Assembly: GCF_008693385.1 (NCBI RefSeq)
Contig: NZ_CP044065.1
Coordinates: forward strand, 1,364,001-1,428,000
DNA length: 64,000 nucleotides
DNA from: Cupriavidus pauculus
Lineage (GTDB): Bacteria > Pseudomonadota > Gammaproteobacteria > Burkholderiales > Burkholderiaceae
Direction of reading: 5' to 3'
In this document: positions 1,818-28,046 of the stretch, one piece after another
How the letters are laid out: every line of letters starts with the position of its first letter
Numbering within the stretch: position 1 is the first letter of the stretch
Notes under the pieces: generated by a model
Told to the model about the DNA's origin: nothing
Seen by the model: only the letters and a program-made list of their open reading frames with translations
Databases searched by the model: none
Program-made: the position numbers and the translations under genes

Positions 1818-1839
1818 GACTTTTACCCCCAAGAGAAAC

Positions 1840-1866
1840 AGGGCGCTCCCACGCATAGGACGCCCT
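1840..1866 (+). other. Stem-loop between nagAa and nagG
   Basis: AGGGCG-C-TCC pairs with GGA-CGCCCT around an 8-nt loop (9 bp, one bulged C). It fills much of the 63-bp spacer just before the nagG ribosome-binding site. There is no U-run, so an RNA-processing or attenuation element inside the operon is likelier than a full terminator. This is inference from pairing only. Confidence 0.4.
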
Positions 1867-1883
1867 ATTCGGAGACGACCGTG

Positions 1884-3143: not shown

Positions 3144-3144
3144 C

Positions 3145-3618: not shown

Positions 3619-3628
3619 GGTATCCGGC

Positions 3629-3943: not shown

Positions 3944-3956
3944 TCGGGGCCTCATC

Positions 3957-5408: not shown

Positions 5409-5429
5409 CGCCGTTGCCCATACCTATCG

Positions 5430-6248: not shown

Positions 6249-6339
6249 CGCGGGGCACGCTGCGCAACCTGGGAAAGCGGGGCGAGCCATCGGAGCATGG
6301 ACGTACCTGCTGAATTTGAAAAACATGGAGGAGACAATC

Positions 6340-7707: not shown

Positions 7708-7746
7708 TCGCCCACGCGCCGTCCATCGCAGTAGTTCCCGCATGAG

Positions 7747-7769
7747 CGGGCACCCACAAGAGGTGCCCG
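7747..7769 (+). terminator. Hairpin between transporter and porin genes
   Basis: CGGGCACC and GGTGCCCG form a perfect 8-bp stem around a 7-nt loop, about 40 bp after the transporter stop and 80 bp before the porin start. No U-run follows. It may end or attenuate the operon before the porin gene; this is a structural inference. Confidence 0.45.
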
Positions 7770-7847
7770 TGTGGATGCGCTCGTCCGTGCCACCTCTCAT
7801 GCCGGCCGAGCCATCCGCGCCATACAACAAAGACAGGAGACATCGAA

Positions 7848-12909: not shown

Positions 12910-13656
12910 ATGTCGGTCATAGGTGAGCTTCAGCGGGTGAGAGAGGGTTCGCACTACCGCGCATTTTCGCTCTGCGGCCTCAAGTCGGCGATGGCGCCTT
13001 TCGTCAACGTCGACCACGTCTGGATATGCGGTCCCGCAGGGCCGGTTTGCCAGCATACGAACGCCCCTTATGTGTCCTATCTTTTCCCGGACTCCGAAAC
13101 GGGGCTTCGTATCAGGGAGGTGTCGGGTGTCGAGCGCGTCGTGCGTCCCGGCGGAATCAGCTGGACCACGAGCGGACAGCATGCGCTCGCGGAGCAGGCG
13201 CCCCTCGAGCCAGGGAAGACCGTGCATGCCGTCCACGTCGGCGTGTCGCTGACCAGCGTTCGCGACCGTATGGCCACCGCGCCGTGTCAACTGGCGCCGG
13301 AGGATATTCCTGCAGACCTGCCGCCGGGTGGGATAGTCCGCGTCCTGGCCGGGGCCCACGGTGCCACGCGATCGTCGCTCGAGCTCGCCGCGGAGATCAC
13401 CATGCTCGATATCGCATTGAACGACATGGCCGAGGTATCCATACCCGTGCCTCCAGATCATTGCGCGATGCTGCTCCCGGTCTCGGGGACCATGATCGTC
13501 GATGGCCAGAGCTTCGACCCTGCCGAACTGCAGTTGCCAATATTGCCGGCGCGCGAAGAGCCTTACGCTGCGTGTGTCGGGGCCCGACATGGCGCAGCGC
13601 AGGTGATGTTGCTCATGGGCTGTCCGTCTCCGCGGATCCGACGCTTTGCCGGGTGA
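12910..13656 (+). CDS. Divergent pirin-family protein with altered metal site
   Basis: A 248-residue bicupin of the pirin type, paralogous to the protein at 15523-16257: PYVSYLFPDSETG and RPGGISWTTSGQ align with AVSYLFLDSETS and RPGALHWTTAGS. Classical pirins bind iron through H-x-H in the first cupin and H-x-E in the second strand pair. Here the first site reads CQHTN, so the first His is Cys, and the GSGIxH segment has become GQHALAE, losing that His. Iron-dependent quercetinase-like activity is therefore doubtful. A G-rich ribosome-binding site (GGAGGGG) precedes the ATG. It lies just upstream of the FAH-hydrolase operon but has its own promoter region. Confidence 0.65.
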   Translation: MSVIGELQRVREGSHYRAFSLCGLKSAMAPFVNVDHVWICGPAGPVCQHTNAPYVSYLFPDSETGLRIREVSGVERVVRPGGISWTTSGQHALAEQAPLEPGKTVHAVHVGVSLTSVRDRMATAPCQLAPEDIPADLPPGGIVRVLAGAHGATRSSLELAAEITMLDIALNDMAEVSIPVPPDHCAMLLPVSGTMIVDGQSFDPAELQLPILPAREEPYAACVGARHGAAQVMLLMGCPSPRIRRFAG

Positions 13657-13687
13657 CGCCGTAACACCGACGTGGTGCCATTATTTT

Positions 13688-13701
13688 GGCAGACGTCTGC
13701 C
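13688..13701. promoter_or_regulatory. Operator palindrome upstream of FAH/extradiol operon
   Basis: GGCAGACGTCTGCC is a perfect 14-bp palindrome, 48 bp upstream of the FAH-hydrolase ATG. Its CAGACGTCTG core recurs twice at 24293-24332, starting 46 bp upstream of the PhzS-like monooxygenase. Size and symmetry fit a MarR- or TetR-family dimer. The MarR protein encoded at 24515 is the nearest candidate. Confidence 0.7.
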
Positions 13702-13748
13702 TAAATTGAAGAGAGAAGCGGTATTCACGACAACACTACGGAGATTCT

Positions 13749-14597
13749 ATGAAGCTTGTCAGCTTTGTTCATGGCGGCCATCCTGGCTTTGGTGTAGTAA
13801 TGGGCGACAAGGTTCTCGACCTTGCCCCTTACCGGGCGCAGGTGGGCGCCACCCTTCGCGAAGCGCTTTCGACGGGGGCCCTGGTCCGTATCGGTGAGCT
13901 TGCGTCGACTGTGCCGGCGACGATCCCGCTCGCGGACATCACGTATCTGCCGGTCGTCGTCGACCCGGGGAAGATCCTGTGTGTCGGTATCAACTATGCA
14001 TCGCACGTTCGCGAGACCGGTCGCGAGATGCCCCAGTATCCGATGTTCTTTACGCGGTTCGCCGACTCCCAGGTTGCACACGAACAACCGATCGTGCGGC
14101 CCACGGCCTCGCACAAGCTCGACTTCGAAGGCGAGCTGGCGGTTGTCATCGGCAAGACCGCGCGTCATGTACCGGCCGCCGACGCACTTGACTACGTGGC
14201 CGGCTACGCCTGCTACAACGACGGGAGCGTACGCGACTGGCAGAAGCACACCATCCAGTTCATTCCAGGCAAGAACTTTCCCCTCACAGGGGGCTTCGGT
14301 CCGTGGCTCGTGACGACGGACGAGATCCCCGATCCGTCCCGGCTCACGCTGACCACGCGCCTCAATGGCGAGATCGTGCAAGAGGCCCGTACCGACGACC
14401 TGATCTTCAGCGTTGGCGATGTCATCGCCTATTGCTCGACGTTCACGGAACTCCGGCCCGGAGACGTGATCATTACCGGCACGACGGGCGGCGTCGGTGC
14501 GTTCCGCAATCCTCCGCTGTGGATGCGCCCAGGCGATATCGTGGAGGTGGAAATCTCGGGAATCGGCATCCTGCGGAACGGGATCCGCGACGAATAA
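13749..14597 (+). CDS. FAH-family hydrolase (acylpyruvate hydrolase type)
   Basis: A 282-residue fumarylacetoacetate-hydrolase-family protein that would split a beta-diketo or acylpyruvate-like product of ring cleavage. The N-terminal domain precedes the conserved ILCVGINYASHV. The metal-binding region is DFEGELAVVIGK, followed by CYNDGSVRDWQ and GKNFPLTGGFGPW. PGDVIITGTTGGVG closes the active site. It is the first gene of an operon with an extradiol-dioxygenase-like gene 14 bp downstream, which supports a ring-cleavage pathway. The exact substrate is unknown. A palindromic operator lies 48 bp upstream. Confidence 0.8.
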   Translation: MKLVSFVHGGHPGFGVVMGDKVLDLAPYRAQVGATLREALSTGALVRIGELASTVPATIPLADITYLPVVVDPGKILCVGINYASHVRETGREMPQYPMFFTRFADSQVAHEQPIVRPTASHKLDFEGELAVVIGKTARHVPAADALDYVAGYACYNDGSVRDWQKHTIQFIPGKNFPLTGGFGPWLVTTDEIPDPSRLTLTTRLNGEIVQEARTDDLIFSVGDVIAYCSTFTELRPGDVIITGTTGGVGAFRNPPLWMRPGDIVEVEISGIGILRNGIRDE

Positions 14598-14611
14598 CGG
14601 GGGCGAGCACG

Positions 14612-15451
14612 ATGACGACCTTGCAGAGTACCACTCCGCTCCAGCTGCATCATTTGCATCTGCATAGCGAGTCCCCCGGGCAACTGGCCGAGTTCTATCG
14701 GAACTTGTTCGAGTTGGATGCCGTCGCGGCGCCGGACGGCATCTACGGGCTGACGGGCGGCGAGCGCGCCATAGTGATTCATCCCGGGGCGAGCGGCGAG
14801 CTCGCGATGGCGGCGTATGCGGCGCGAACGCGCGAGGAACTATCCGTGTTGCGCGAGAGGCTTTCCGACGTCGCCCGGGATGGCGGCATCGGTTCCGAGG
14901 TGTTCTTCGAGCCCGGCGCCTTCTCGGTAACCGATCCGCAAGGCCGGCGTTTGCTGTTCGGCGTTCCGCGTACAAGGCGCCGACCGGATCGGATGGCCGC
15001 GCGGCTGCAGCATACCGTGTTCCAGACCACGGACCTCGCGACAATCGTGGACTTCTACGTGAATCGCGTGGGTTTTGCCATCTCCGACGAAGTCGTCGCC
15101 GACGATGGTTCCATCACGACCTGCTTCCTGCGATCCGACGACGAGCACCATACGCTCGCGTTCTTCCAGGGCTCGAACAACGTTTGGGATCATCACTGCT
15201 ACGAAACCGGCTCCTGGAACGATATCCGGGACTGGGGCGATCGCTTTGCCAAGGTCCGTCGCGGCATCTTCTTCGGCCCGGGCCGGCATGGTCCAGGCAA
15301 TAACCTGTTCTTCATGATTACCGATCCCGATGGAAACCGCGTCGAGCTGTCGGCGGAACTCGAACATGTCCGCGCCGGGCAGTCGCCGGGGGTGTGGCCG
15401 CACGAGGAGCACACACTGAATTCGTGGGGACGTGGCTGGATCCGGACGTAA
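14612..15451 (+). CDS. Two-domain VOC protein, type I extradiol dioxygenase-like
   Basis: A 279-residue protein of two glyoxalase/VOC modules, like catechol 2,3-dioxygenase and BphC. In the C-terminal module, LQHTVFQT (His), WDHHCYE (His) and DPDGNRVELSAE (Glu) fit the 2-His-1-carboxylate iron site, and GRHGPGNN matches the conserved outer His region. A short GGGGGCGAG serves as ribosome-binding site. It is co-transcribed with the FAH hydrolase, so it likely opens the ring to give that enzyme's substrate. The phenolic substrate is unknown. Confidence 0.75.
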   Translation: MTTLQSTTPLQLHHLHLHSESPGQLAEFYRNLFELDAVAAPDGIYGLTGGERAIVIHPGASGELAMAAYAARTREELSVLRERLSDVARDGGIGSEVFFEPGAFSVTDPQGRRLLFGVPRTRRRPDRMAARLQHTVFQTTDLATIVDFYVNRVGFAISDEVVADDGSITTCFLRSDDEHHTLAFFQGSNNVWDHHCYETGSWNDIRDWGDRFAKVRRGIFFGPGRHGPGNNLFFMITDPDGNRVELSAELEHVRAGQSPGVWPHEEHTLNSWGRGWIRT

Positions 15452-15457
15452 ATGACA

Positions 15458-15490
15458 ATGCGCGGGTCCGGCTGGCGCCGGCCCGCGCAT
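15458..15490. terminator. Bidirectional terminator hairpin
   Basis: ATGCGCGGG-T-CCGGC pairs with GCCGG-CCCGCGCAT (14 bp, one bulged T) around loop TGGC. It fills the gap between the ends of the convergent extradiol-dioxygenase and pirin genes. It lacks a strong U-run on either side. Confidence 0.7.
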
Positions 15491-15522
15491 GAGGCGTGGA
15501 TCAGCATCGCGGAAGTTTGCTG

Positions 15523-16257
15523 CTAGCGCGATCGAGGCTGAAGCGACGGACCGGTGAAAAACATGACCTGTGCGCCGTAGGGAGCATGGAGCATGGCATG
15601 CCGCGCGGTTTCCTGCGCGAGGTAGACCGGAACACGAAGATCGCTGGCATCGTACGATTCTTCCTCGAGCGTCACCATCCCCGAGATCGGAAGAAAAAAT
15701 GCCCGCTCGCCGGCTGCGATCGGAATCGCCAGTGACCGGCCCGGACGCACGGTGATGTCCAGCAATGTGACATCGGTCGGCGGCACGAGAGGCGAGCGAG
15801 TTTTCCCAAAGCCGCCCACCGGGATACGAACGGTGGCATCGACGGTTTGCACCACAGGGATGTCTTCCGGTTCCAGCGTCAGCGTGAAGGCATCTATGTT
15901 TCGACGCTCGGGTGCGAGGTCGACGAAGATCTGCAGCGAGTGGACAATTTTTCCTGTCTCGACAGGCTGCCCCTCGTGGTCGATGCCGGAGCCCGCGGTC
16001 GTCCAGTGCAGCGCGCCCGGGCGGATCAGATGACGGGCACCGAGCGAGTCGTGGTTGTCCACGCTCGTTTCGGAGTCAAGGAACAGGTACGAAACGGCCG
16101 ACATCCCCTCATGATGATGCATGGGAAACGTCGGACCGCTCATCCACGCATGATCGACCCCGAGAAACGGGTCGATCAGCGAGGCCGCCCCTCGTAATGC
16201 GTTGGCGCGGAAGTGATTGCCGTGCCGGAACGGCTTGAGGTGGGTCGTGATCAGCAT
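15523..16257 (-). CDS. Pirin family protein
   Basis: A 244-residue bicupin. The metal site looks complete: HHHEGMSAVSYL supplies the H-x-H pair and GSGIDHEG the next His and Glu region. Pirins include iron-dependent quercetin dioxygenases and redox-sensing regulators; which applies here is not visible. The ATG at 16257 lies 7 bp after the Old Yellow Enzyme stop, so the two genes are an operon. This points to a role in electrophile or quinone metabolism, as inference. Confidence 0.8.
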   Translation of the reverse strand: MLITTHLKPFRHGNHFRANALRGAASLIDPFLGVDHAWMSGPTFPMHHHEGMSAVSYLFLDSETSVDNHDSLGARHLIRPGALHWTTAGSGIDHEGQPVETGKIVHSLQIFVDLAPERRNIDAFTLTLEPEDIPVVQTVDATVRIPVGGFGKTRSPLVPPTDVTLLDITVRPGRSLAIPIAAGERAFFLPISGMVTLEEESYDASDLRVPVYLAQETARHAMLHAPYGAQVMFFTGPSLQPRSR

Positions 16258-16264
16258 GCCGGAC

Positions 16265-17338
16265 TCACGCCGCCTTGGATTCCGCCAGCGTCGGATAGTC
16301 GGTGTAGCCCTGCGCCGTACCGCCATAGTAGCCTGCGCGCTGAGGTTCGTTCAGCGGCGCATCAGCCTTCACGCGTTCGAGGAAGTCGGGGTTCGCAAGG
16401 ACCATCTGGCCATAGGCTTCGAGATCGGCCAGACCGTTGGAGATGTCCTTGCCAATATCGGCCCGCGCCCGACCGGGGCGATTGAGCATCAGCACACCTT
16501 GCCAGAGCTTGTGAATGTCCGCCAGCAGCTGCTCGTTGCCGAGGTGCATGACATGGATGTAGGCCAGGTCGAGCGAGTCCAGTTCCTTCACGAGATAACG
16601 ATACAGATCCGGGCCTTCACTCCCTTCGTCGATGCCCCCCATCTTGTTTCCCGGGGAGAGGCGGATGGCGGTGCGGTTCGCGCCGATTTCCTCGGCGATG
16701 GCCCTGGTCACCTCGATGGCGAAGCGCGCGCGGTTTTCGATCGAGCCACCGTATTCGTCGGTACGGGTGTTGGCGCTGGGCGCGAAGAACTGGTGAATCA
16801 GATACGAGTTGGCACCGTGAATTTCGACGCCATCCGCGCCGGCCTCGATCGCGCGGCGCGCCGCGGTCCGGAAATCCTGGATGGTCTGGCGGATATCGTC
16901 CTGCGTCATCGCGCGCGGCACGGGGATATCCAGCATGCCCTTGAGCGTGAACATCTGCGCGCCCGGCGCGATTGCCGAGGGGGCCACGGGCTGGCGATGA
17001 TGGGGCGTGTTGTCGGGATGGGACATGCGGCCCACGTGCATCAGCTGGATGAACAGGCGGCTGCCTTTCGCGTGCACCGCCTCGGCCGTTTTTTTCCAGC
17101 CGGCAACGTGCGCGTCGGTGTAGATGCCGGGCGTCGAGATATAGCCCTGACCATCGTCGGATGGTTGAGTGCCTTCGCTGATGATGAGGCCCACCCCAGC
17201 GCGTTGGCCGTAGTACAGCGGCGCCAGATCGCCCGGCGTGCCATCGGGCAGTGCGCGCGAACGTGTCATCGGTGCCATCACCACACGATTCTTCAGCGTG
17301 TAGCCGCCAACGTGGATCGGGTCGAACATGGTCTTCAT
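16265..17338 (-). CDS. Old Yellow Enzyme family ene-reductase (NemA-like)
   Basis: A 357-residue FMN-dependent NAD(P)H ene-reductase that reduces activated C=C bonds, quinones or nitro compounds. Family marks are MAPMTRSRALPDG, GVGLIISEGTQP, FIQLMHVGRMSHP, GADGVEIHGANSYLIHQFF and the C-terminal GGTAQGYTDYPTL. The ATG at 17338 has GAGGAG about 6 nt upstream; longer in-frame starts lack one. It is followed by the pirin gene and preceded, after 110 bp, by an AhpD-like gene on the same strand. A second homologue lies at 35200-36273. Confidence 0.88.
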   Translation of the reverse strand: MKTMFDPIHVGGYTLKNRVVMAPMTRSRALPDGTPGDLAPLYYGQRAGVGLIISEGTQPSDDGQGYISTPGIYTDAHVAGWKKTAEAVHAKGSRLFIQLMHVGRMSHPDNTPHHRQPVAPSAIAPGAQMFTLKGMLDIPVPRAMTQDDIRQTIQDFRTAARRAIEAGADGVEIHGANSYLIHQFFAPSANTRTDEYGGSIENRARFAIEVTRAIAEEIGANRTAIRLSPGNKMGGIDEGSEGPDLYRYLVKELDSLDLAYIHVMHLGNEQLLADIHKLWQGVLMLNRPGRARADIGKDISNGLADLEAYGQMVLANPDFLERVKADAPLNEPQRAGYYGGTAQGYTDYPTLAESKAA

Positions 17339-17448
17339 AACGAACTCCTCGTAGATGGGATGATGATGAATAATGGTCTGCGCCCGATGCTGGATAAAGG
17401 GCATTTCCGGCAGCAGATTGTTCCATTCGCGCAGCAATGCGCGCATGG

Positions 17449-17952
17449 TCATCGGGATGACGATTCTTGGGACGCGATCATGAAGGGGAGGGCGGCGCCT
17501 GGATGCTCGACGCGCTCGCCGGGCGGAACCGCCACCGCGGTCATCCGGCACAGCAACCTGCTCAGGCTGACCTGCGCCATGACCTCCAGCACTTCTGCCT
17601 GGCTATAGCCCGCCTCGGACATATGCCGGACGCTTGCCGCAAACGCGGTGGGCTCTCGGTGCCGGATAAGTGCGGACACGAATTGCAGGCATACGGTGGC
17701 TTTTGCGTCGTAGCTATCGCCCTGCTGGTTGGCGGTCATTTCGGCCCCGTTGAGGCCGAGCGTGCGCCCGGACTCGCGCAACGTGTCGATGGTAAAGATA
17801 GATAGCCCTGTCTGAGCCAGATATAGCGCGATTCGCAGCGTTGTCCGTTTGCCCAGCGCGCCATCCTGCGCGAGACCCGACATGAGCGCAATGGTCTTGG
17901 CGCCTGCCTTCGTGTTACTGACGAAAAGTCTGCGACGCTCCTGGGAATCCAT
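17449..17952 (-). CDS. AhpD-like protein lacking the CxxC motif (second paralogue)
   Basis: A 167-residue paralogue of the protein at 9037-9558, sharing RTTLRIALYLAQTGLSIF, GLNGAEMTANQQGDSYDAKA and AGYSQAEVLEVMAQVSL. As in the paralogue, the helix where AhpD peroxidases carry CxxC has none (LAQTGLSIFTIDTL). The ATG at 17952 (MDSQ) matches the paralogue's MDST start; an upstream start at 17997 is possible. It precedes the Old Yellow Enzyme and pirin genes on the same strand. Function unknown. Confidence 0.65.
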   Translation of the reverse strand: MDSQERRRLFVSNTKAGAKTIALMSGLAQDGALGKRTTLRIALYLAQTGLSIFTIDTLRESGRTLGLNGAEMTANQQGDSYDAKATVCLQFVSALIRHREPTAFAASVRHMSEAGYSQAEVLEVMAQVSLSRLLCRMTAVAVPPGERVEHPGAALPFMIASQESSSR

Positions 17953-18085
17953 ACGAGATACCGCCAAAGATCGTTCCACACGGAACCATTCTGGCAAATG
18001 ACGCAGGACTCAGGAACGATTCATCGAGCAAGTCACCATTTCGCTGCACGCAATGCGTGATCGCTTCGGGCGCTGGCTCCGAAAC

Positions 18086-19018
18086 TCACGCCATGACGTC
18101 AGGAATGGAACGATTTCCGGCATGGCGCAGGCACTCGAGCATGTTCGTGACCGCCGAGCGCCGCATGCCGTCTTCCCGCCAGTACATCGATACCGATCCG
18201 AAACCCGAGAGGCGAAGCGGCACGATGCGCAACGCGCCGAGCGCCTCCAGCCGGAGCGCGGTCCGATGCGAGGCCAGGCCGATCATGTCGCTATTGCTCA
18301 GCAGCGTGAGGTTGAGGATGGTGCTATTGCTCTCCACCGTATCGACAGGAAACGCGCATCCCACCTCCGCGAGCGCTGCCTCCATGGCGTGTCGGATCGG
18401 TGTGCCGCGCGGCCATACGACCCAGCGGTAGGCCAGCAAATCGGACCACGACAGATCGCTGCGCGCGGCCAGCGGATGGCGTGGCCGCGCGACGAAGTGC
18501 AGGGGTTCCATGTACAGCGATTCCGCGCGGATGTGCGCTTCCTGCAGTTCCGGCGCGGAGCGGCCGACCACGATGTCCAGTTCGCTACGCGCCAGTTGCT
18601 GCATCAGGCGATCCATGGTCGCCTCGATCACGCGTACCTGCGCGCGGGGCATTCGCTGCAGCAGGCTCAGCACGGCGAGCGGCACGGTATCCGCCGCGGA
18701 TGCCCCCGAGGTGCCGACGACGACGAGGCCGCTGCCGCCTTCGCTCAGCGTTTGCAGGTCGTCGCGCGCGCTGTCGAGCTGGCCCTGGATGCGCCGCGCA
18801 TGCTCGATGAGGGCGATGCCGGCGGGGGTCGGCTGCAGGCCGCGGGCCAGCCGTTCGAACAGCGGTGTTCCGATGTCGTCTTCCAGCTCTCTGAGCCATT
18901 TGGAAAGACCTGGCTGAGTCGTATTGAGCAGCGCGGCGGACTGGCTCATGTTCCCTGTCTCGGACAGCGCCAGCAGCATATGCAGATGCCTGAGGCGCAA
19001 ACGGTGCGTCCAGTCCAT
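18086..19018 (-). CDS. LysR-family regulator divergent from gentisate genes
   Basis: A 310-residue LysR regulator. Its helix-turn-helix includes LALSETGNMSQSAALLNTTQP, and the effector domain follows. The style (GTPLFERLARGLQPTPAG) resembles GbpR/PcaQ-type members. The ATG at 19018 is preferred because AGGTG lies 6 nt upstream; a GTG at 19027 overlaps that site. It diverges from the gentisate dioxygenase gene across 126 bp, so it is the probable regulator of the nagIKL operon. The effector is unknown. Confidence 0.8.
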   Translation of the reverse strand: MDWTHRLRLRHLHMLLALSETGNMSQSAALLNTTQPGLSKWLRELEDDIGTPLFERLARGLQPTPAGIALIEHARRIQGQLDSARDDLQTLSEGGSGLVVVGTSGASAADTVPLAVLSLLQRMPRAQVRVIEATMDRLMQQLARSELDIVVGRSAPELQEAHIRAESLYMEPLHFVARPRHPLAARSDLSWSDLLAYRWVVWPRGTPIRHAMEAALAEVGCAFPVDTVESNSTILNLTLLSNSDMIGLASHRTALRLEALGALRIVPLRLSGFGSVSMYWREDGMRRSAVTNMLECLRHAGNRSIPDVMA

Positions 19019-19076
19019 GATGCTCACCTATATGTTTTTTAGTATCGAACCAAGCGAAAATTCATTTCAAATAGTA

Positions 19077-19113
19077 TAGAGCGGCGCGTATAAAAGCGAG
19101 GTAGAGCGGCGCG
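19077..19113. promoter_or_regulatory. Direct repeats in the LysR-nagI promoter gap
   Basis: TAGAGCGGCGCG occurs at 19077-19088 and 19102-19113, 25 bp apart, in the intergenic region just upstream of nagI. Spacing by more than two helical turns could fit regulator binding, or the copies may result from slippage. AT-rich sequence at 19030-19080 probably holds the core promoters. Confidence 0.35.
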
Positions 19114-19144
19114 ACCGAAGCGCCGCGGAACATTCGGAGACGAC

Positions 19145-20197
19145 ATGTCAGAACATCGAGAGGAAACGCGCGCCACGCGGGCGGATTACTACGCGCGTAT
19201 CGGGCTAAGCAACATGGCTCCGCTCTGGGAGTCGCTGCACGCGCTGGTGCCGCGCGAACCGCATCCGCAAGTCATTCCGGCCATCTGGAAGTACGAAGCG
19301 GTGCGGCCGCTGGTCATGCAGGCGGGTGGCCTGATCAGCGCGGAGGAGGCCGTGCGCCGCGTGCTGGTGCTCGAAAATCCGGGCATCCCCGGCAAGTCGA
19401 GCATCACGTCCACGCTGTACGCGGGATTGCAGTTGATTCTTCCCGGCGAGGTGGCGCCGAGTCACCGCCATACACAATCCGCATTGCGCTTCATCGTCGA
19501 AGGCAAGGGCGCCTGGACCGCCGTCAATGGCGAACGGACCACCATGCATCCCGGCGATTTCATCATTACGCCTTCCTGGACGTGGCACGACCATGGCAAT
19601 CCCTCGCTCGACGACGGGGGCGAGCCAGTGGTCTGGCTGGACGGCCTCGACATTCCGCTCGTGCAGCAATTCGACGCCGGGTTCGCCGAAACCTATCCGG
19701 AAGCCCAGCAGCCGGTGCTGCGTCCCGAAGGGGATAGCCTCGCGCGCTTCGGCCACAACATGGTGCCAGTGCGTCACCGGGTCACGGACCCGACCTCGCC
19801 GCTGTTCAGCTACCCGTATGCGCGGTCGCGCGAGGCACTGGACCGGTTGCTCCGCCACGGCGAACTCGATGCGTGGGATGGCGTGAAGCTGCGCTACGTC
19901 AATCCCGCCACCGGCGGCTGGCCGATGCCGACGATTGCGACCTTTATGCAGCTGCTGCCCGCCGGCTTTCAGGGCAAGACGTATCGCAGTACCGACGCCA
20001 CCGTGTACAGCGTGGTGGAAGGGCGCGGTACGGTGCGTATCGGCGAAGCGCAGTTCCAGTTCGAGCCGCGCGACACGTTTGTCGTGCCATCGTGGGCACC
20101 GGTACAACTCGCCGCGCGCGACGACGCCGTGCTGTTCAGCTTCTCCGATCGTCCGGTGCTGTCCGCACTGAATCTGCTGCGCGAAGCGCGCACCTGA
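19145..20197 (+). CDS. nagI: Gentisate 1,2-dioxygenase
   Basis: A 350-residue bicupin that cleaves gentisate to maleylpyruvate with Fe(II). The N-terminal cupin carries SHRHT (His107, His109) and TWHDHGN (His148, His150), typical of gentisate dioxygenases, as are RALVLENP-like [11 protein letters not shown] and DGLDIPLVQ. The length matches the family. It is the first gene of the lower pathway, followed by hydrolase and isomerase. The ring-opening substrate would be supplied by the NagGH hydroxylase at 1884-3618. Confidence 0.88.
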
Positions 20198-20280
20198 TTG
20201 CACCCAAGTTCGCCTGCAGCGGCGCGCGCCTGACGGACGCGCCGGGGCGGCACTCACCCTTCTTATCCGGAAACCTGACC

Positions 20281-20979
20281 ATGAAGTTCGTTTTTACGCC
20301 TCCCGCCACCGTATCCGTGCCCGTCGCCGGTACCGATGAAGCCTTCGCCATTCGCCGCGTCTACTGTGTGGGCCGCAATTACGCCGCCCATGCGCGCGAG
20401 ATGGGTTTCGATCCGGACCGCGAACCGCCGTTCTTCTTCTGCAAGCCGGCGGACGCGGTACTGCCCGTGCTGGACGGCCAGACACTCGAATTGCCGTACC
20501 CGTCGCAGACCGGGAATTACCACTATGAGGCCGAACTGGTGGCCGTGATCGGCAAGTCCGGCTCGGACATTGCCGTCGAAGACGCGCTTGACCATGTCTA
20601 TGGTTATGCCGTGGGCCTCGATATGACGCGGCGGGACCTGCAGATGAAGATGCGCGAAATGGGCCGCCCCTGGGAAATCGGCAAGGCGTTCGACGCGTCG
20701 GCGCCGATCGGTCCGATCCATCGCGCCGCCGATGTCGGACATCCGCAGAAGGCCGCGCTTACGCTGACGGTGAATGGAGAAACCCGCCAGTCGAGCAACG
20801 TGACGCATCTGATCTGGTCGGTACCCGAGACGGTGGCCTACCTGTCGCAGTTCTTCCGCCTCGAACCGGGCGACGTCATCTACACGGGGACGCCCGAAGG
20901 CGTCGGTGCCGTGGTGAAAGGCGACCTCATGGTGACCGCCGTGGAGGGACTTGGCGAACTGAACGTTCGGGTCATCTGA
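20281..20979 (+). CDS. nagK: Fumarylpyruvate hydrolase (FAH family)
   Basis: A 232-residue FAH-family enzyme that splits fumarylpyruvate into fumarate and pyruvate. YCVGRNYAAHAREMG, YHYEAELVAVIGKSG (metal-binding glutamates), GYAVGLDMTRRDLQ and PGDVIYTGTPEGVG are the conserved blocks, and the short single-domain length is that of NagK. It lies between gentisate dioxygenase and the isomerase gene, the usual order in nag/gentisate operons. It is distinct from the longer FAH proteins at 13749 and 27102. Confidence 0.87.
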   Translation: MKFVFTPPATVSVPVAGTDEAFAIRRVYCVGRNYAAHAREMGFDPDREPPFFFCKPADAVLPVLDGQTLELPYPSQTGNYHYEAELVAVIGKSGSDIAVEDALDHVYGYAVGLDMTRRDLQMKMREMGRPWEIGKAFDASAPIGPIHRAADVGHPQKAALTLTVNGETRQSSNVTHLIWSVPETVAYLSQFFRLEPGDVIYTGTPEGVGAVVKGDLMVTAVEGLGELNVRVI

Positions 20980-20995
20980 GGTACGGAGGCCTATT

Positions 20996-21637
20996 GTGCA
21001 GCTCTACAGCTTCTTCAACAGTTCCACGTCGTACCGGGTGCGCATCGTGCTCGGCCTGAAGGGTCTGCCGTACGACTACCTGCCGGTCAATATCCGTGCC
21101 CTGCAGCATCAGGAGTCGGAGTACGTCGATGCCGTCAATCCGTCGGCATGCGTGCCGGCGATCGCGGATGGCGATTTTCGGCTCGGCCAGTCGATGGCGA
21201 TCATCGACTGGCTCGATGCCCGCTATCCCGTACCGCGGATGATTCCCGAAGAGCTCCATCAGCGTAGCCGCGTGCTGGAGCTGGCCAATCTCATCGGCAG
21301 CGATATCCACCCGGTCAACAACCTGCGCGTGCTGCGTTACCTCGAGACTGTGCTCAAGGTTTCGCCCGAGCAGAAGAGCGCCTGGTACCGGCACTGGATC
21401 GACGAGGGCATGCGGGGCGTGGAACGGTTGCTGGAGCGGCATGGCCACGGTGTTTACTGTTTTGGCGACGCGCCCACGCTTGCCGATGTGTGCCTGGTAC
21501 CGCAGATGGCAAACGCCATGCGCATGGGGTGCGACCTGAGCGTGTATCCGCATGCGCTCGGGGTCTACGAACACGCCTCGCTGCACCCGGCGTTCGCCGC
21601 GGCCGTGCCGTCCCAGCAACCGGACTACATCGCCTGA
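20996..21637 (+). CDS. nagL: Maleylpyruvate isomerase (zeta-class GST type)
   Basis: A 213-residue glutathione-S-transferase-fold protein that isomerises maleylpyruvate to fumarylpyruvate, probably with glutathione. The N-terminal thioredoxin-like part has SSTSYRVRIVLGLKGLPYDY, with the SSxxxRVR motif of zeta-class maleylacetoacetate/maleylpyruvate isomerases, followed by GQSMAIIDWLD. Translation starts at GTG, 16 bp after nagK, with ACGGAGG as ribosome-binding site. Gene context favours maleylpyruvate over maleylacetoacetate. Confidence 0.86.
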   Translation: MQLYSFFNSSTSYRVRIVLGLKGLPYDYLPVNIRALQHQESEYVDAVNPSACVPAIADGDFRLGQSMAIIDWLDARYPVPRMIPEELHQRSRVLELANLIGSDIHPVNNLRVLRYLETVLKVSPEQKSAWYRHWIDEGMRGVERLLERHGHGVYCFGDAPTLADVCLVPQMANAMRMGCDLSVYPHALGVYEHASLHPAFAAAVPSQQPDYIA

Positions 21638-21738
21638 ACCGCACGCTGCGGGCAAGACACTGTTTCGCTGCACGCTATACCGGGAATGCCTTCGACTCCC
21701 TAGAGTTGTAGCTCAATGCAACGCCAGGGAGCGGCATC

Positions 21739-22965
21739 TTGGATTCACATGCATCGCCGCACGTATCCGCGGCATCGCGCGAGCGCCTGTTGCGGGTGCT
21801 TGCCGCCACCACGTTCATCATTTTCTTTCAGGGTTACATGGTGGCCCCGATCATTCCCGCGCTGTCCACGCTGTTTCATACCAGCGAGCAGCACGCCGGA
21901 TTGATCGTGCCCGCCTATCTCATCCCCTACGGCGTCGCGACACTCGTGTACGGTCTGCTGGCCGACCGGCTCGGCATTCACCGCATCATGCTGGGGTCGC
22001 TGGCCGCCTTCGTCATTCTCACCGCGCTTACCGCCACCGCGACGTCCATCGATCAGTTGGCATGGTGGCGCGTGGCGACAGGACTGGGCGCAAGCGGAGT
22101 GGTGCCGCTTGGTCTGGCGCTGGTGGGCCGCCTGTTTCCCTACGAGCAACGCGGCCGTCCGCTGGGCTGGATGTTCGGGGCCATGGCGGGTGGCATGGCG
22201 TTCGGTTCGCCGCTCGGCGCACTGCTGGTGCCGTCGATCGGCTGGCGCGGGCTGTTCCTGGTGGTCGCGCTCGGTGGCGCGGCCATGTTCCTGACGCTGC
22301 TTCCCTTTCGCCGCATCATCGCGGCGGCCGCGATGCCCGTTGCCGGCACGCTGGCCGACGTGATGCGCGGCTTCAAGGCCCTGTTTGCCACACCGCGCGG
22401 GCGAACGACGTATGGCTACGTGCTCGTCAACTCGATCTTCCATTCCGGCGTCTTCACCTGGCTGGGTGTTTATTTCACGCACCGATATGGCATGAGCGCG
22501 GGGCAGGTGGGCCTTGCGCTGCTCGGCTATGGCGTGCCGGGGTTCCTGCTCGGCCCCTATATCGGCCGCATGGCGGATCGATGGGGCCGTGCGAGGCTGG
22601 TACCGGTGGGACTGGCGATCAGCGGGATCGCGGCGATCGTGCTGCTGACGGGTTTTCCTGCCGGCTTTGCGCCGCTGGTCGCCATGGGCCTGTCGCTTGG
22701 CTATGACATGACGCAGCCCCTGTTCGGCGGCATCGTGACATCGCTGGGCGGCCAACGGCCGGGGCAGGCCATGGGACTCAACGTATTCATGTTATTCGTC
22801 GGCTTCGGGCTCGGCAGCCTGATATTCGGCGCGCTGCTGCACTACGGGTTCGGACCCGCACTGATGGCCTTCGCCGCCATCGAGCTCGCCGCCGCCGCGC
22901 TCTCCGTCAAGCTCTTCCGCACGGAGCTGCCGCCCGCGGCGGCGGCGCCGAACCCGGGGCGATAA
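21739..22965 (+). CDS. MFS transporter downstream of the gentisate operon
   Basis: A 408-residue MFS protein with about 12 membrane segments. LLADRLGIHRIMLG is the loop 2-3 motif, and GYMVAPIIPALSTLF lies in segment 1. It resembles small drug/metabolite exporters more than AAHS-type aromatic uptake proteins. A TTG at 21739 is the likely start, with AGGGAG 7 nt upstream; the next in-frame ATG would remove segment 1. It follows nagL by about 100 bp. Transport of gentisate or a related acid, or export of an intermediate, cannot be decided. Confidence 0.72.
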   Translation: MDSHASPHVSAASRERLLRVLAATTFIIFFQGYMVAPIIPALSTLFHTSEQHAGLIVPAYLIPYGVATLVYGLLADRLGIHRIMLGSLAAFVILTALTATATSIDQLAWWRVATGLGASGVVPLGLALVGRLFPYEQRGRPLGWMFGAMAGGMAFGSPLGALLVPSIGWRGLFLVVALGGAAMFLTLLPFRRIIAAAAMPVAGTLADVMRGFKALFATPRGRTTYGYVLVNSIFHSGVFTWLGVYFTHRYGMSAGQVGLALLGYGVPGFLLGPYIGRMADRWGRARLVPVGLAISGIAAIVLLTGFPAGFAPLVAMGLSLGYDMTQPLFGGIVTSLGGQRPGQAMGLNVFMLFVGFGLGSLIFGALLHYGFGPALMAFAAIELAAAALSVKLFRTELPPAAAAPNPGR

Positions 22966-22975
22966 CGCCCAGTGC

Positions 22976-24247
22976 CTACGCGCCGTTTGCGTTCCCCGTT
23001 GCGGCCTTCAGGCCTTCGACCGTATAGCCGGCGACTTGCTTGTAGTTCGCGGTAATGCCGCGGAGCTCGGCCTCGTCGATGATGCCCTCGAGCGTGGTAA
23101 ACGGCTTGCCCTGGGTACGCTCGTGCACGACATTGAGAATCTTGTCGGGCGGCGCCTTGCGGTTGGTCAGCACGACATCGGTGGTTGCCTTGACGCGCTC
23201 CTTGTCGTAGGCAAGCAGGGCTTCCGGGCCCACCCCGTATTGCACGAACTTGTTGCGCAGCACATCGGCGTCGAGAATCGACTGACCGGCGCCGTTCGAG
23301 CCGCGCGGCACCATGGGGTGCGCGGCGTCGCCAAGCAGCGTGAGGCGGCCGAACGTCCAGGTCGGCAGCGGGTCCTGATCGACCATCGGGAACTGGAGGA
23401 TGCCAGTCGTCGCTTCCATCATGGCGGTCACGTCGAGCCAGTCGAAGTGCCAGTCCTTGAAGGCGTGGATAAAGTCTTCGAGGCGGCCCGCCTTGTTCCA
23501 GTCACGCTGGGCCGGTTGTGGCGACTCGATTTCCGCGACCCAGTTCACCAGCTGGCGTCCCTGTGCATCCACGTTGTCGCGGATCGGGTAGATCACCATC
23601 TTGCCGACGCCGGGCATCAGCGCGCCGGCGCGTACCATCGTTGCACCCGAGAGAAACGCATCCCAGTGCACGGCCCCTCGCCACATGTTGATACCGGAGT
23701 ACTTCGGTGCGCCTTCATTAGGGTAGAACTGCTTGCGCAATGCAGAGTGCAGGCCTTCGCACGACACCGCGACCGTTGCCTTCACCACATGCGTCTGTTC
23801 GGCTGCGTCAACGAACGTGACGGTGGCTTCGGTGTCGTCGGAAGCCGCGCTGACGCAGCGACGATCGAGAACGACGGCATCCTTGCCGAGACGCTCCTGC
23901 ACGGCCGCAAGCAGTGCCATCTGCAGATCGCCGCGATGGATCGAGAATTGCGGCGTGGCATAGCCGGCCGCGACGCCGGCGGGCTCGCGGAAAATCAGTT
24001 GCCCGTGCACGTTGAAGAACGCGGCTTCCTTCGTGGCGATGCCGATCTTGCCCAATGTGTCGTTCATGCCAAGCTGGCCCAGCACGCGCGTCGCGTGCGG
24101 CAGGATATTGATGCCCACCCCCAGCGGGCGGAGTTCCGGGGCAGCTTCATAGACACGGCAGTCGATGCCGGCGTCATGTAGCGCCAGGGCCAGCGTCAGG
24201 CCGCCGATCCCGCCACCGATGATCATTACTTCGCATTCCTTGGACAT
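22976..24247 (-). CDS. PhzS-like FAD-dependent aromatic monooxygenase
   Basis: A 423-residue flavoprotein hydroxylase of the PHBH/PhzS class. GGGIGG (residues 11-16) binds FAD; RPLGVGINILPHA, IHRGDLQMALLAAV and LLGDAAHPMVPRGSNGAGQ follow, and the RGSNGAGQ form is typical of PhzS-type enzymes. The ATG at 24247 has GAGGAG about 7 nt upstream. It converges on the MFS gene with only 10 bp between. Paired palindromes start 46 bp upstream and match the operator of the FAH/extradiol operon at 13688. It may therefore hydroxylate the aromatic compound which that operon cleaves. This link is inference. Confidence 0.78.
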   Translation of the reverse strand: MSKECEVMIIGGGIGGLTLALALHDAGIDCRVYEAAPELRPLGVGINILPHATRVLGQLGMNDTLGKIGIATKEAAFFNVHGQLIFREPAGVAAGYATPQFSIHRGDLQMALLAAVQERLGKDAVVLDRRCVSAASDDTEATVTFVDAAEQTHVVKATVAVSCEGLHSALRKQFYPNEGAPKYSGINMWRGAVHWDAFLSGATMVRAGALMPGVGKMVIYPIRDNVDAQGRQLVNWVAEIESPQPAQRDWNKAGRLEDFIHAFKDWHFDWLDVTAMMEATTGILQFPMVDQDPLPTWTFGRLTLLGDAAHPMVPRGSNGAGQSILDADVLRNKFVQYGVGPEALLAYDKERVKATTDVVLTNRKAPPDKILNVVHERTQGKPFTTLEGIIDEAELRGITANYKQVAGYTVEGLKAATGNANGA

Positions 24248-24287
24248 CTTCGCTCCTCGCACGACGTTATGGATTCAAGCCTTTAAA

Positions 24288-24336
24288 TTAAGCAGACGTC
24301 TGTCTAAATAGGGTTGATATGACAGACGTCTGCCGA
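24288..24336. promoter_or_regulatory. Paired CAGACGTCTG operators
   Basis: Two copies of the palindrome CAGACGTCTG (24293-24302 and 24323-24332) are centred 30 bp apart, about three helical turns. Both lie between the monooxygenase gene and the divergent marR-like gene, near the monooxygenase side. A degenerate third half-site (ACGTCTGTC) is at 24389-24397. Same core as 13688-13701. Binding by the MarR protein encoded next door is the simplest reading. Confidence 0.7.
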
Positions 24337-24514
24337 ATACTAGGGCGCGTATTCCATGCTGTCAACCGTCATCGCGCACCGTAGCGTAACGTCTGTCGCC
24401 ACGTATCGGGGTGGGGCGGCTCTACGCTAGAATCGCCCCGTCATCCCTCGCGTCACGCCTGGTTTTCCCCGTTTTCGTTACGCAGCTCGTACAGACCCAA
24501 TCGATAAGTGGAAG

Positions 24515-25021
24515 ATGAATAGACCGATCGAGTCACCAACATTGGCCGCGGATCCCCGCCTGGAGACGCTGTACCGGCGACCCGGCTTTCTGATTCGCCG
24601 CGCGCATCAGATCGCGATGGACATGTTCATCGAGGCCTGCGCGCCCGTCGATATGACGCCCAGCCAGTACGGCGTGCTTTACATCCTGCAGCACATCGGG
24701 CCGCTGAGCCAGATCGGCGTGGCGCGCCTGATCGGTCTGGACCGGTCCACGGCGGCGCTCGTCGTCAAGCTGCTGACCGAACGCGGGCACGTCATGAAGG
24801 CGCCGAGCGCGCTCGATGCGCGCAAGGTGGAGATCGCGATCACGCCGGCGGGCTCGCAGGTGCTCAAGCAGGCGGCAAAGCTCGCCAATCGCGAAATGAA
24901 GCAACTGCTGGCGCCGTTCTCGGAGAGCGAAGGGCAGATGTTCCTGTCGCTGCTGGAGAAGTTCGTCGCCCACCATAACGACACCACGCGCGTCAGCATC
25001 GTGGGCCGGTCGGACGCCTGA
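24515..25021 (+). CDS. MarR-family transcriptional regulator
   Basis: A 168-residue MarR protein. The winged helix spans about residues 45-115: TPSQYGVLYILQHIGPLSQIGVARLIGLDRSTAALVVKLL is followed by the wing DARKVEIAITPAG. The N- and C-terminal helices would form the dimer. It diverges from the PhzS-like monooxygenase across 267 bp containing two palindromes, so it probably represses that gene and, by shared operator, the operon at 13749. MarR proteins of this type often respond to phenolic ligands. The targets are inferred. Confidence 0.82.
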   Translation: MNRPIESPTLAADPRLETLYRRPGFLIRRAHQIAMDMFIEACAPVDMTPSQYGVLYILQHIGPLSQIGVARLIGLDRSTAALVVKLLTERGHVMKAPSALDARKVEIAITPAGSQVLKQAAKLANREMKQLLAPFSESEGQMFLSLLEKFVAHHNDTTRVSIVGRSDA

Positions 25022-26620: not shown

Positions 26621-27082
26621 ATGTACGCGATTTCAGCCAGCTTCGACGTCAACCCTGCCAGCGAGGCGATTCGTCTGACCCGAGCCCAGATGTGGAAAGG
26701 CCTCGTGCAGAAGGCCGAGTATGCGGTGCCCTTCGTTCCCGCAATGGAAGACTGTGTAGTGCAGGAACGTTTCGACGACGGTTTCATTCGTCAGATCACG
26801 CTGCGCAACATGACCGTGCGCGAGCGCATCACGTTCACGCCGGAAGTGCAGGTGCTGTTCGAGCGCATCGAGTCGGCGGACAACGGCTGGATCACCAACG
26901 TGCTGAGCGATGCCGAGCAAGGTCTCGTGCTGACGTTCACCTTCGCGCTGTGCTTCGACGGCGTGGAGGCCGGCTCGGCGGAAGAGCGCCGCAAGGGTGA
27001 GGAAGTGCGCGAGAGCTATATCGCCGCCGTCGGCGCAACGATCGCCGAGACGCGCCGCCGCGTCGCGGCAGGCGAGATCTGA
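26621..27082 (+). CDS. SRPBCC/AtaL-like protein (DUF1857 type)
   Basis: A 153-residue protein resembling AtaL-like/DUF1857 members of the START/SRPBCC superfamily, which bind hydrophobic ligands or act in polyketide and aromatic pathways. LTRAQMWKGLVQKAEYAVPFVPAMEDC near the N-terminus is the clearest family block. GGAG lies 8 nt before the ATG. It is 25 bp from the tautomerase gene and 19 bp from the FAH gene, so it is in the operon. No catalytic residues can be named. Confidence 0.65.
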   Translation: MYAISASFDVNPASEAIRLTRAQMWKGLVQKAEYAVPFVPAMEDCVVQERFDDGFIRQITLRNMTVRERITFTPEVQVLFERIESADNGWITNVLSDAEQGLVLTFTFALCFDGVEAGSAEERRKGEEVRESYIAAVGATIAETRRRVAAGEI

Positions 27083-27101
27083 GACGCGGAGCCGGAACAA
27101 G

Positions 27102-28046
27102 ATGATCAATCACGCATCCGCCAGCGAGCCCAGCCGTCCGGTCCTCGTTTCATACGAGGGGGGGCGCGGAACGCGGGTCGGCATTCTGGTGCGGCAGCAG
27201 GTCTTCGATCTTGCCGAAGTCAGCGCGACGCCCCGCTATGCGGAGATGTCCGAAGTGCTCGGCGACTGGAGCCTCGTGAAGGACCTGCTGCGACGCTTCG
27301 ACGCCTCGGCCACGAATGGCACCACGCCACTCGCACTGGCCGAAGTGCGCCTGCTCGCGCCGGTCGGCACACCGGGCGCGATCTATGGCGCAGGTGCAAA
27401 CTATGCCGACCATGCCGCGGAAATGGCGCGAGTCAACAATACCGTGATGTCTGGCAAGCGGGGCGAGCGTTCGTGGCATTTCGTGAAGAGCTCCCATTCG
27501 GTGGTCGGCCCCGACGCCGTGGTGAAGCTGCCCGAGGGTGCGTCGTCCGTGGATTGGGAAGTGGAACTGGCGGCGGTCATCGGCAGGCAGGGGAAGAATC
27601 TTTCTCTCGAGGAAGCACTGGACTACGTCGCCGCGTATGCCGTCTCGATCGATCTCTCCGCGCGCGATCTGAGCCGCCGCGTGGACCTGCCCGAAAAGTC
27701 GCCGTTCCGCATGGACTGGCTGTCGCACAAGAGCTTCGACGGCGCGTGTCCCATCGGGCCCTGGCTGGTGCCGGCGGAGTACGTCAAAGACCCGCAGCAG
27801 CTCGACCTCGCGTTGTCGGTCAATGGCGAAACCAAGCAGGACTCCAACACGAACCAGATGATCTTCTCGCTGGCCGAGCAGATCCGTGACCTGTCGGCGC
27901 GCATCACGCTGTGGCCCGGCGACGTCGTCCTGACGGGAACGCCCGCGGGCGTCGGCAGCAGCCATGGTCACTTTCTGCGCAAGGGCGACCGCGTGTCTGC
28001 CAGCGTGGCGGGGCTTGGCGTCCTGGAAGTCAGTATCGAGGCCTGA
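27102..28046 (+). CDS. FAH-family hydrolase
   Basis: A 314-residue FAH-family protein, two-domain form. IYGAGANYADHAAEMA, VDWEVELAAVIGRQG (metal-binding glutamates), YAVSIDLSARDLSRR and PGDVVLTGTPAGVG are the conserved blocks. A flexible N-terminal extension begins MINHASASEPSRP. It would hydrolyse an acylpyruvate-like or 2-hydroxymuconate-type intermediate. Its operon also has a tautomerase and, further on, an extradiol-dioxygenase-like gene, mirroring the FAH/extradiol pair at 13749-15451. Confidence 0.8.
   Translation: MINHASASEPSRPVLVSYEGGRGTRVGILVRQQVFDLAEVSATPRYAEMSEVLGDWSLVKDLLRRFDASATNGTTPLALAEVRLLAPVGTPGAIYGAGANYADHAAEMARVNNTVMSGKRGERSWHFVKSSHSVVGPDAVVKLPEGASSVDWEVELAAVIGRQGKNLSLEEALDYVAAYAVSIDLSARDLSRRVDLPEKSPFRMDWLSHKSFDGACPIGPWLVPAEYVKDPQQLDLALSVNGETKQDSNTNQMIFSLAEQIRDLSARITLWPGDVVLTGTPAGVGSSHGHFLRKGDRVSASVAGLGVLEVSIEA

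Follow-up and report, generated by a model that had tools for sequence, protein, structure and literature searches.

The locus raises the question of which regulator recognizes a palindrome shared by two operons of aromatic metabolism, and whether the enzymes encoded behind it serve a common pathway. In the analysed stretch of Cupriavidus pauculus DNA (64,000 nucleotides, hereafter the window), one of these operons encodes an FAH-family hydrolase of 282 aa (13749..14597, + strand; PF01557), a likely acylpyruvate hydrolase for which no NCBIfam equivalog cut-off is reached. It is followed after 14 bp by a glyoxalase-fold (VOC) extradiol dioxygenase of 279 aa (14612..15451, + strand; start assigned by homology). 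The dioxygenase falls well below the cut-offs for HpaD (72.6 against 321 bits) and catechol 2,3-dioxygenase (66.9 against 320), both scored on the frame with the longer start. Its QH, DHH and SAE positions, which we take to be the iron ligands (two His, one Glu) of a VOC-type extradiol dioxygenase, are invariant in six aligned sequences. The second promoter belongs to a PhzS-like class A flavin monooxygenase (FMO; 22976..24247, - strand; start by homology), which passes the PRK07538 subfamily cut-off (552 bits, cut-off 400) and has the PhzS entries 2rgj and 3c96 as its best PDB matches. Its assignment as a 3-hydroxybenzoate 6-monooxygenase (PRK08163) fails, at 139.9 bits against a cut-off of 459.

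Palindromes in the two promoters

The window contains CAGACGTCTG exactly three times, at 13690-13699, 24293-24302 and 24323-24332, as the first-pass annotation had reported. It had described them as perfect palindromes with a common core; the core is indeed shared by all three, but perfection over 14 bp (GGCAGACGTCTGCC) is found only at 13688-13701, and at the other two places it is limited to 10 bp. The near-equal spacing to the start codons also stands: 47 bases separate the 14-mer from the FAH ATG (13749), and 45 bases separate the 24293 site from the FMO ATG (24247). We refer to the three sites as operators O1 (13683..13706, an inverted repeat of 24 bp in which one pair is mismatched), O2 (24286..24309) and O3 (24316..24339).

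The bare 10-mer is not rare, since CAGACGTCTG occurs 7 times in the 7.06-Mb genome versus 5 times for a reversed control. The four copies outside the window lie inside ORFs read as unrelated genes and lack AT flanks. With those flanks, i.e. as the pattern WTWNRRCAGACGTCTGYYNWAW derived from the window's three sites, the genome-wide search proposed earlier returns these three sites and no others, and none for the control. Three flanked copies, all in the promoters of two aromatic operons, are far beyond chance. None of 59 congeners and none of 397 further family genomes contains WTWNRRCAGACGTCTGYYNWAW, which is too strict to catch relatives; a looser flanked pattern was used for finding them.

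When the window was scanned with a matrix of 13 sites, O1 itself among them, O1 scored highest of all positions (37.4 bits), and the next non-site reached 8.5. Scores were negative at the other nearby promoters, namely those of the pirin-like genes, OYE, an AhpD-like gene, an MFS gene and a porin. The window has no Rfam match. In the literature the core string turns up in 16 papers, none of them about a regulator as judged by title.

A sigma-70 promoter (TTGACA-N17-TAGTAT; 24337..24365, - strand) is predicted for FMO, with its -10 box overlapping the edge of O3. The site in the FMO promoter of relatives lines up with O3, the distal site at 24323, while the proximal site at 24293 (O2) is extra; the promoter geometry is kept across 5 aligned loci. 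For the FAH operon, a search of its own strand gave no sigma-70 promoter.

The MarR protein and its predicted operator

A palindromic site is present in the divergent promoter that adjoins a gene for a MarR-family repressor (24515..25021, + strand; PF12802, 36.8 bits, cut-off 27; PF01047, 32.5 bits, cut-off 24.6) with the recognition helix GLDRST. The exact core stands upstream of FMO in all ten examined genomes that have a close relative of this MarR (its own genome, six named loci, a Caballeronia plasmid, and genomes G139 and G196). Among 398 family genomes, close MarR relatives occur in 5 and the looser flanked pattern in 4, all of them within the 5; the fifth MarR-bearing genome, G196, has the core. 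Because some of the loci behind the flanked pattern had come from the MarR search itself, the association was also computed without the three genomes used to build it (1/2 vs. 0/393, p 0.005).

More distant MarR loci show the same relationship at the level of the recognition helix. The core is found in 18 of 39 loci with a 'DRST' helix compared to 0 of 35 with another helix (p 9e-7, a Fisher value that overstates independence because the loci are related by descent); the remaining 21 DRST loci have no exact core within the locus DNA covered. This contrast ranks the core first of 1024 palindromes, with the runner-up at 9e-4, but only under the contrast is it first: by raw enrichment across the 74 distant loci it is fourth, and by locus count it falls outside the top eight. 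Of the 31 sites in 80 loci, 27 are intergenic, versus 14% of the bases in site-holding loci, as called with a crude codon-position gene filter; longest-frame calls are unreliable in GC-rich DNA. If the same sites are written as CAGN4CTG, an ACGT centre occurs 31 times in the 45 DRST loci and 0 times in the 35 others. The first-pass proposal of this MarR as the likely regulator thus gains support, in that the core tracks both its close relatives and the DRST helix type. The LysR-type regulator encoded at 18086..19027 (- strand) was rejected for this role, since the sites persist in a Caballeronia plasmid that has no annotated LysR gene near its gentisate operon, and since the window's own LysR/gentisate promoter lacks a site, its matrix scores peaking at -7.4.

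Against the PDB, the MarR profile matches best to PcaV of Streptomyces coelicolor (PDB 4fht), a protocatechuate-responsive MarR repressor with which it has the GLDRST helix in common. PcaV is reported to repress its target until hydroxyl-substituted benzoic acids release it, and its probe contains CTCAGTGCCCTGACT, with the CAG-N4-CTG arrangement of the palindrome here (PMC6882365). PcaV differs from the present MarR in phylum, in the central bases of its site and in its regulon. On the strength of the helix and the CAG/CTG half sites, the MarR described here fits what we call the PcaV-like operator class (CAG-N4-CTG), a name coined in this work. The best NCBIfam match is the family of Saro_0803 (NF053777), a resveratrol-responsive MarR of Novosphingobium, but membership was rejected at 75.4 bits against a cut-off of 200; the inverted repeat of the Saro_0803 promoter is given as GCAATA------TATTGC (PMC10046596). 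The nicotinate regulators NicR and BpsR are pointed to by automatic names of MarR relatives only.

Gentisate genes and the origin of the FAH/dioxygenase operon

Between the two operons, and divergent from the LysR gene, lie genes for gentisate 1,2-dioxygenase (19145..20197; TIGR02272, 591 bits, cut-off 442), an FAH-family, likely fumarylpyruvate hydrolase (20281..20979; nagK-like), a GST-fold maleylpyruvate/maleylacetoacetate isomerase (20996..21637; TIGR01262, 249 bits, cut-off 171; the model's own name is maleylacetoacetate isomerase) and an MFS transporter (21739..22965), all on the + strand. The dioxygenase and the isomerase, both above equivalog cut-offs, place these genes in the gentisate pathway. 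Their promoter in this genome, next to the LysR gene, has no operator site in the matrix scan. Eight of nine relatives have either an exact or single-mismatch site ahead of the gentisate genes or these genes placed after FMO on the same strand. The view of this block as a separate bystander therefore does not hold for most relatives, where it is under the same operator. Likewise, the proposed regulon of hydroxylase, extradiol dioxygenase and acylpyruvate hydrolase is incomplete, as it omits the gentisate genes; that the three form one functional set is what we infer from the fact that two lineages independently moved the dioxygenase/FAH pair under the operator without a hydroxylase of its own, as described below.

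Related systems are known. The gtdA operon of Cupriavidus necator H16 is reported to comprise genes for gentisate dioxygenase, maleylpyruvate isomerase, fumarylpyruvate hydrolase, an MFS transporter and a LysR regulator (PMC11603403), a set in common with the gentisate genes here. The nag genes of Ralstonia sp. U2 are another gentisate operon. H16 has a 3-hydroxybenzoate 6-monooxygenase and the LysR regulator GtdR, whereas this locus has a PhzS-like hydroxylase, predicted MarR control and an added extradiol branch. Literature searches for this gene set, for gentisate with MarR and the palindrome, and for PhzS with gentisate found no described system.

The relatives of the FAH/dioxygenase operon indicate its ancestry. 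Among 11 related operons without the site (dioxygenase 54-79% identical), 10 keep FAH, an MhpA-type hydroxylase, the dioxygenase and an IclR gene. The operons at L149 and L178-L186, from congeners and other family members (FAH 71-84% and dioxygenase 56-79% identical), differ from the one here in that hydroxylase and IclR gene are kept and the MarR operator is absent. In the eleventh (genome G108, L189), a short hydroxylase match remains in a 1-kb gap and there is no IclR match on the 10-kb contig; hydroxylase loss is therefore possible without this operator. A different gene order and no IclR match are seen in two operons that are more distant (dioxygenase 43-44%). In plasmid pBAM2 of Aminobacter sp. 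MSH1, a VOC dioxygenase gene adjoins an FAH gene (40% and 52% identical, respectively, to the pair here), beside Rieske and glutathione S-transferase genes, unlike here; pBAM2 as a whole is tied to 2,6-dichlorobenzoate breakdown (PMC8460812). No described pathway was found in the literature for the FAH/MhpA-type/dioxygenase/IclR operons, nor a function for the Ax-1724-type operon.

In the C. pauculus genome there is no MhpA match at E 1e-40, and neither the window nor three Caballeronia loci contain an IclR or MhpA match. In all three Caballeronia genomes, the FAH/dioxygenase operon lies about 15 kb from marR with CAGACGTATG upstream, a site with one mismatch that is meaningful by its position only, given about 3 single-mismatch hits per genome in the control. 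A tree in which the captured operons here and in Caballeronia share one origin is rejected (AU p 2e-60). The two captures therefore look separate in origin and convergent, and the pattern suggests that FMO would have taken the place of the lost MhpA-type hydroxylase.

Predicted control of the regulon

We consider it probable that the palindrome is the MarR operator; that FMO and the gentisate genes are the core regulon; that the FAH/dioxygenase operon was recruited to it with loss of the hydroxylase and IclR genes, the operator being gained independently in Caballeronia; and that the dioxygenase substrate most likely comes from FMO or a different regulon enzyme. Operator conservation, co-occurrence with the MarR clade and helix type, gene content and the separate origins of capture are read from sequence; MarR binding, repression, the inducer and the metabolic link between FMO and the dioxygenase are what we infer. 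In the absence of inducer, a MarR dimer would sit on the operator across the FMO promoter's -10/start region, and another in front of the FAH/dioxygenase operon, such that transcription of both is blocked; an aromatic acid or its metabolite would then release MarR. Judging from relatives, the core regulon would consist of FMO and the gentisate 1,2-dioxygenase pathway. The recruited operon would descend from one with genes for FAH, an MhpA-type hydroxylase and the dioxygenase and with an adjacent IclR gene; both here and, independently, in Caballeronia it would have lost the hydroxylase and IclR genes and gained a MarR operator. With the hydroxylase gone, FMO or another regulon enzyme most likely feeds the dioxygenase.

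The main rival, to which we give somewhat less than an even chance, is that MarR controls both operons for different compounds: FMO would feed gentisate dioxygenase, and the FAH/dioxygenase pair would be fed by another hydroxylase, e.g. the Rieske system at 831-3143, with shared control reflecting a shared inducer only. Of 45 DRST-MarR loci, 10 have both FMO and gentisate dioxygenase (identity at least 40%), and none has the extradiol dioxygenase within about 10 kb; the window does encode a Rieske alpha subunit and reductase; and in G108 the hydroxylase is down to a remnant with no MarR site. This rival is weakened by the absence of a dedicated hydroxylase together with operator gain in two lineages, and by the Caballeronia loci tested: none matches the Rieske alpha subunit or reductase encoded in the window, although in one of them a separate Rieske alpha gene is annotated.

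Other dimeric regulators, such as an unlinked TetR-type protein, could also recognize a perfect, AT-flanked 10-bp core, with MarR a chance neighbour; this is very unlikely, as close MarR relatives and the core occur together in every examined genome, even at loci with some 3-10 kb between marR and the sites, and the core follows the MarR helix type. That only the FMO sites are functional and O1 is a chance resemblance, as the four unflanked genomic copies of the bare 10-mer might allow, is highly improbable in view of O1's leading matrix score (itself among the 13 sites) and the near-identical site at the equivalent Caballeronia operon.

A stronger version of the preferred reading, i.e. regulon capture with enzyme replacement, is a tentative proposal that we regard as possible but on balance doubtful. 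Here, a PhzS-like monooxygenase would twice, convergently, have taken over from an MhpA-type hydroxylase the role of feeding the same extradiol dioxygenase and acylpyruvate hydrolase, each time with the hydroxylase and IclR genes shed and a MarR operator gained. PhzS catalyses a decarboxylating hydroxylation, and in one variant FMO would convert gentisate to hydroxyquinol in this manner. If so, one regulon would hold two alternative ring-opening routes from gentisate.

What is new is the pairing of operator and regulator and the apparently convergent regulon capture; the kind of system is already known. The MarR/operator pair may serve as a biosensor once its inducer is known. The analysis assigns a predicted operator to an uncharacterised MarR subfamily across Alpha- and Betaproteobacteria, so that its target genes become readable from genome sequence, and it offers a testable case in which evolution would twice, in parallel, have given a ring-cleavage operon a new regulator and a new hydroxylase.

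Distribution of the palindrome in the host genome and at FMO promoters

The host genome (7.06 Mb, 3 contigs) belongs to one of 60 species of the genus compared. Three exact copies of the 10-bp palindrome CAGACGTCTG (the core) are found in the window, namely: one upstream of the operon encoding an FAH-family hydrolase and an extradiol dioxygenase (13749-15451). The other two are in the intergenic stretch that separates the minus-strand gene of a PhzS-like flavin monooxygenase (FMO; 22976-24247) from the divergent marR gene (24515-25021). The gentisate 1,2-dioxygenase operon (19145-22965), which includes hydrolase, isomerase and MFS transporter genes and has a divergent LysR gene, lies between the FAH/dioxygenase operon and FMO. 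Two pirin-like genes (12910-13656, with a Pfam match only below cut-off, and 15523-16266) flank the FAH/dioxygenase operon, both directed towards it.

The first-pass annotation held that the palindrome is confined to these two operons. In a genome-wide search this is true of the core with its AT-rich flanks, found only at the three window sites, but not of the bare 10-mer, which is not rare (7 copies in the genome vs. 5 for the reversed control); the other four copies are inside ORFs read as unrelated genes and lack AT flanks. The flanked pattern, derived from the three window sites themselves, is absent from all 59 congeners and from the 397 other family genomes. AGACGTCT is found at 20 places in the genome vs. 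70 for its reversed control, i.e. it is rarer.

MarR relatives at 56-76% identity are found in Paraburkholderia and Caballeronia. All six of the nearest named loci have an FMO gene with the exact core upstream, as do the Caballeronia zhejiangensis plasmid and family genomes G139 and G196; the total is 10/10 genomes examined, own genome included (two of the named loci, listed as Burkholderia turbans and Caballeronia cordobensis, correspond to family genomes G198 and G289, and each enters the total once). The most conserved stretch in five aligned FMO promoters is TATTCGGCAGACGTCTGTC, in which one letter varies, and it is preceded by TTGACA-like and TAnTAT boxes. A promoter scan of the window gives TTGACA-N17-TAGTAT, which runs up to the operator, a position at which a bound repressor would prevent initiation.

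A second aromatic block at 831-8957 encodes a Rieske reductase and alpha subunit (AndAc-like, score below cut-off), an aldehyde dehydrogenase, an SDR (coniferyl-alcohol-dehydrogenase-type, score above cut-off), an aromatic acid MFS protein and a porin. In three relatives, an SDR with 63-64% identity to it is encoded within 10 kb of marR. Furthermore, three Caballeronia loci have, at ~6 kb from marR, an FAH-family hydrolase gene that is 66-67% identical to the third such gene of the window (26997-28046), and thus the island shares more than the two operons.

The predicted reader of the palindrome

The MarR protein (E 1e-40) is encoded in 5/398 family genomes, and a looser flanked pattern occurs in 4/398, all four among those five; in the fifth, G196, the flanks of the core deviate slightly. 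Since three of the MarR genomes also shaped the pattern, the independent part of this association is 1/2 vs. 0/393 (p 0.005). A stronger test is provided by 74 distant MarR loci (36-46% identity), none of them used in building the pattern. The core is present in 18 of the 39 loci whose recognition helix carries DRST vs. none of the 35 with other helices (DKVT 29, DRVT 4, DKST 1, NKVS 1). In this contrast it ranks first of 1024 ten-base palindromes (p 9e-7; runner-up 9e-4); by raw enrichment, disregarding helix type, it is only fourth. By a crude codon-position filter, 27 of the 31 core sites in all 80 loci are intergenic, vs. 14% of the bases of site-holding loci. Viewed as CAGN4CTG, the motif has an ACGT centre 31 times in 45 DRST loci but in none of the 35 others; the 31 sites are those already counted as core sites. 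Kinship among the loci inflates all these association values, although the loci span Alpha- and Betaproteobacteria. PcaV, the nearest solved relative, has the same recognition helix, and its probe, as published in PMC6882365, has the CAG-N4-CTG layout of the window palindrome. From the helix-type contrast, the co-occurrence and the likeness to PcaV, we conclude that the MarR protein at 24515-25021 is the predicted reader of the palindrome, in agreement with the regulator first proposed.

The neighbours of the core were also read in three alphaproteobacterial loci. It lies between a leftward amidohydrolase-type gene (Pfam-checked in this locus only) and a rightward FMO in L036, and between a leftward amidohydrolase-type gene and a rightward TPP-enzyme gene followed by FMO in L044; the setting is similar in L054, with neighbours judged by first residues only.

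Putative captured and ancestral forms of the FAH/dioxygenase operon

All three Caballeronia genomes with the operon (turbans, cordobensis and the zhejiangensis plasmid) carry it at a distance of ~15 kb from marR, and CAGACGTATG precedes its FAH start codon by ~20 bp. A one-mismatch match of this type is not significant genome-wide (control ~3 per genome); its position just before the operon is significant.

The dioxygenase (E 1e-60) is found in 15/398 family genomes. Our comparison set (n=13) consisted of the 12 besides own and two Caballeronia, all examined, plus the relative locus Ax-1724. MarR was found in none of the 12. Among 11 operons with 54-79% dioxygenase identity, ten (nine of the twelve family genomes and Ax-1724) have the order FAH, MhpA-type hydroxylase, dioxygenase, with an IclR gene nearby, and the core (≤1 mismatch) is absent before FAH in all ten. 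At locus L184 the hydroxylase match is split in two pieces. The eleventh operon, in G108, has FAH and dioxygenase genes with a ~1-kb gap holding only a short hydroxylase match (at 2429-3446 of its locus, an apparent MhpA-type remnant whose long frame is gone); its contig, 10 kb long, gave no IclR match, and the operon lacks an operator site. The hydroxylase can therefore decay without this operator. G025 and G239 (dioxygenase 43-44%) have the three genes in a different order, with neither an IclR match nor an operator site.

The captured form, found in own genome and Caballeronia, has no hydroxylase gene between FAH and dioxygenase, which are 14 and 48 bp apart, respectively. Searches of the window and of the three Caballeronia loci gave neither an IclR nor an MhpA match. 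At E 1e-40, own genome, G198 and the zhejiangensis plasmid are also free of MhpA matches; G289 has one, at 34%.

In a tree of 15 concatenated FAH and dioxygenase sequences, which leaves out G108, G025 and G239, the window pair groups with congeners G042 and G024 (support 98/84). The Caballeronia pair falls beside Ax-1724 and G381, a second species of its genus (99/99). All four neighbours retain hydroxylase and IclR. A tree constrained to unite the two captured operons is worse by 176 log units (AU p 2e-60). As they fall in separate clades and a common origin is rejected, the regulatory switch appears to have occurred at least twice; several back-rearrangements of the operon would be the less likely alternative.

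A 33-bp palindrome that differs in kind from the core, CTGCATTATTCGCATATTATGCGAATAATGCAG, lies upstream of FAH, on the side of the IclR gene, at L178 and, with one letter changed, at L179; it is a candidate IclR operator. At L182 (G033) the FAH-MhpA-dioxygenase-IclR operon has a cluster of gentisate isomerase, hydrolase and dioxygenase genes ~2.5 kb away, and this MarR is absent there.

The predicted core regulon and the proposed pathway

In relatives, the predicted MarR operator also precedes the MFS gene heading the gentisate genes in the three Caballeronia. It also precedes the gentisate dioxygenase gene, exactly in G139 and with one mismatch in P. fungorum, P. polaris and G196, while in Ax-1724 the gentisate genes are downstream of FMO on the same strand. 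P. oxyphila is the sole relative lacking a gentisate dioxygenase gene in the stretch examined. Based on these arrangements, the predicted core regulon combines FMO with the gentisate pathway in 8/9 relatives, whereas the initial view took the gentisate genes for a separate block. In own genome their operon has no operator site. A 189-base-period repeat with five evenly spaced weak matches lies between marR and the gentisate genes of G196 (7496-8252 of its locus).

We propose that MarR would repress FMO and the captured operon until an aromatic acid relieves repression; FMO would then hydroxylate its substrate, and the product would enter gentisate cleavage, the route through the extradiol dioxygenase and FAH, or both routes. 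FMO, or another regulon member, probably now supplies the captured operon, mainly because both captured forms lack their own hydroxylase. A less likely but plausible rival is that the two operons have only an inducer in common. This rival likewise assumes MarR control, so the confidence placed in the two readings need not add up to one.

Control of aromatic catabolism by MarR proteins belongs to an already known kind. What would be new here, and was not found in print in the open-licence literature searched, is the predicted operator of this MarR subfamily, its apparent tie to helix type, and the putative convergent capture of an operon.
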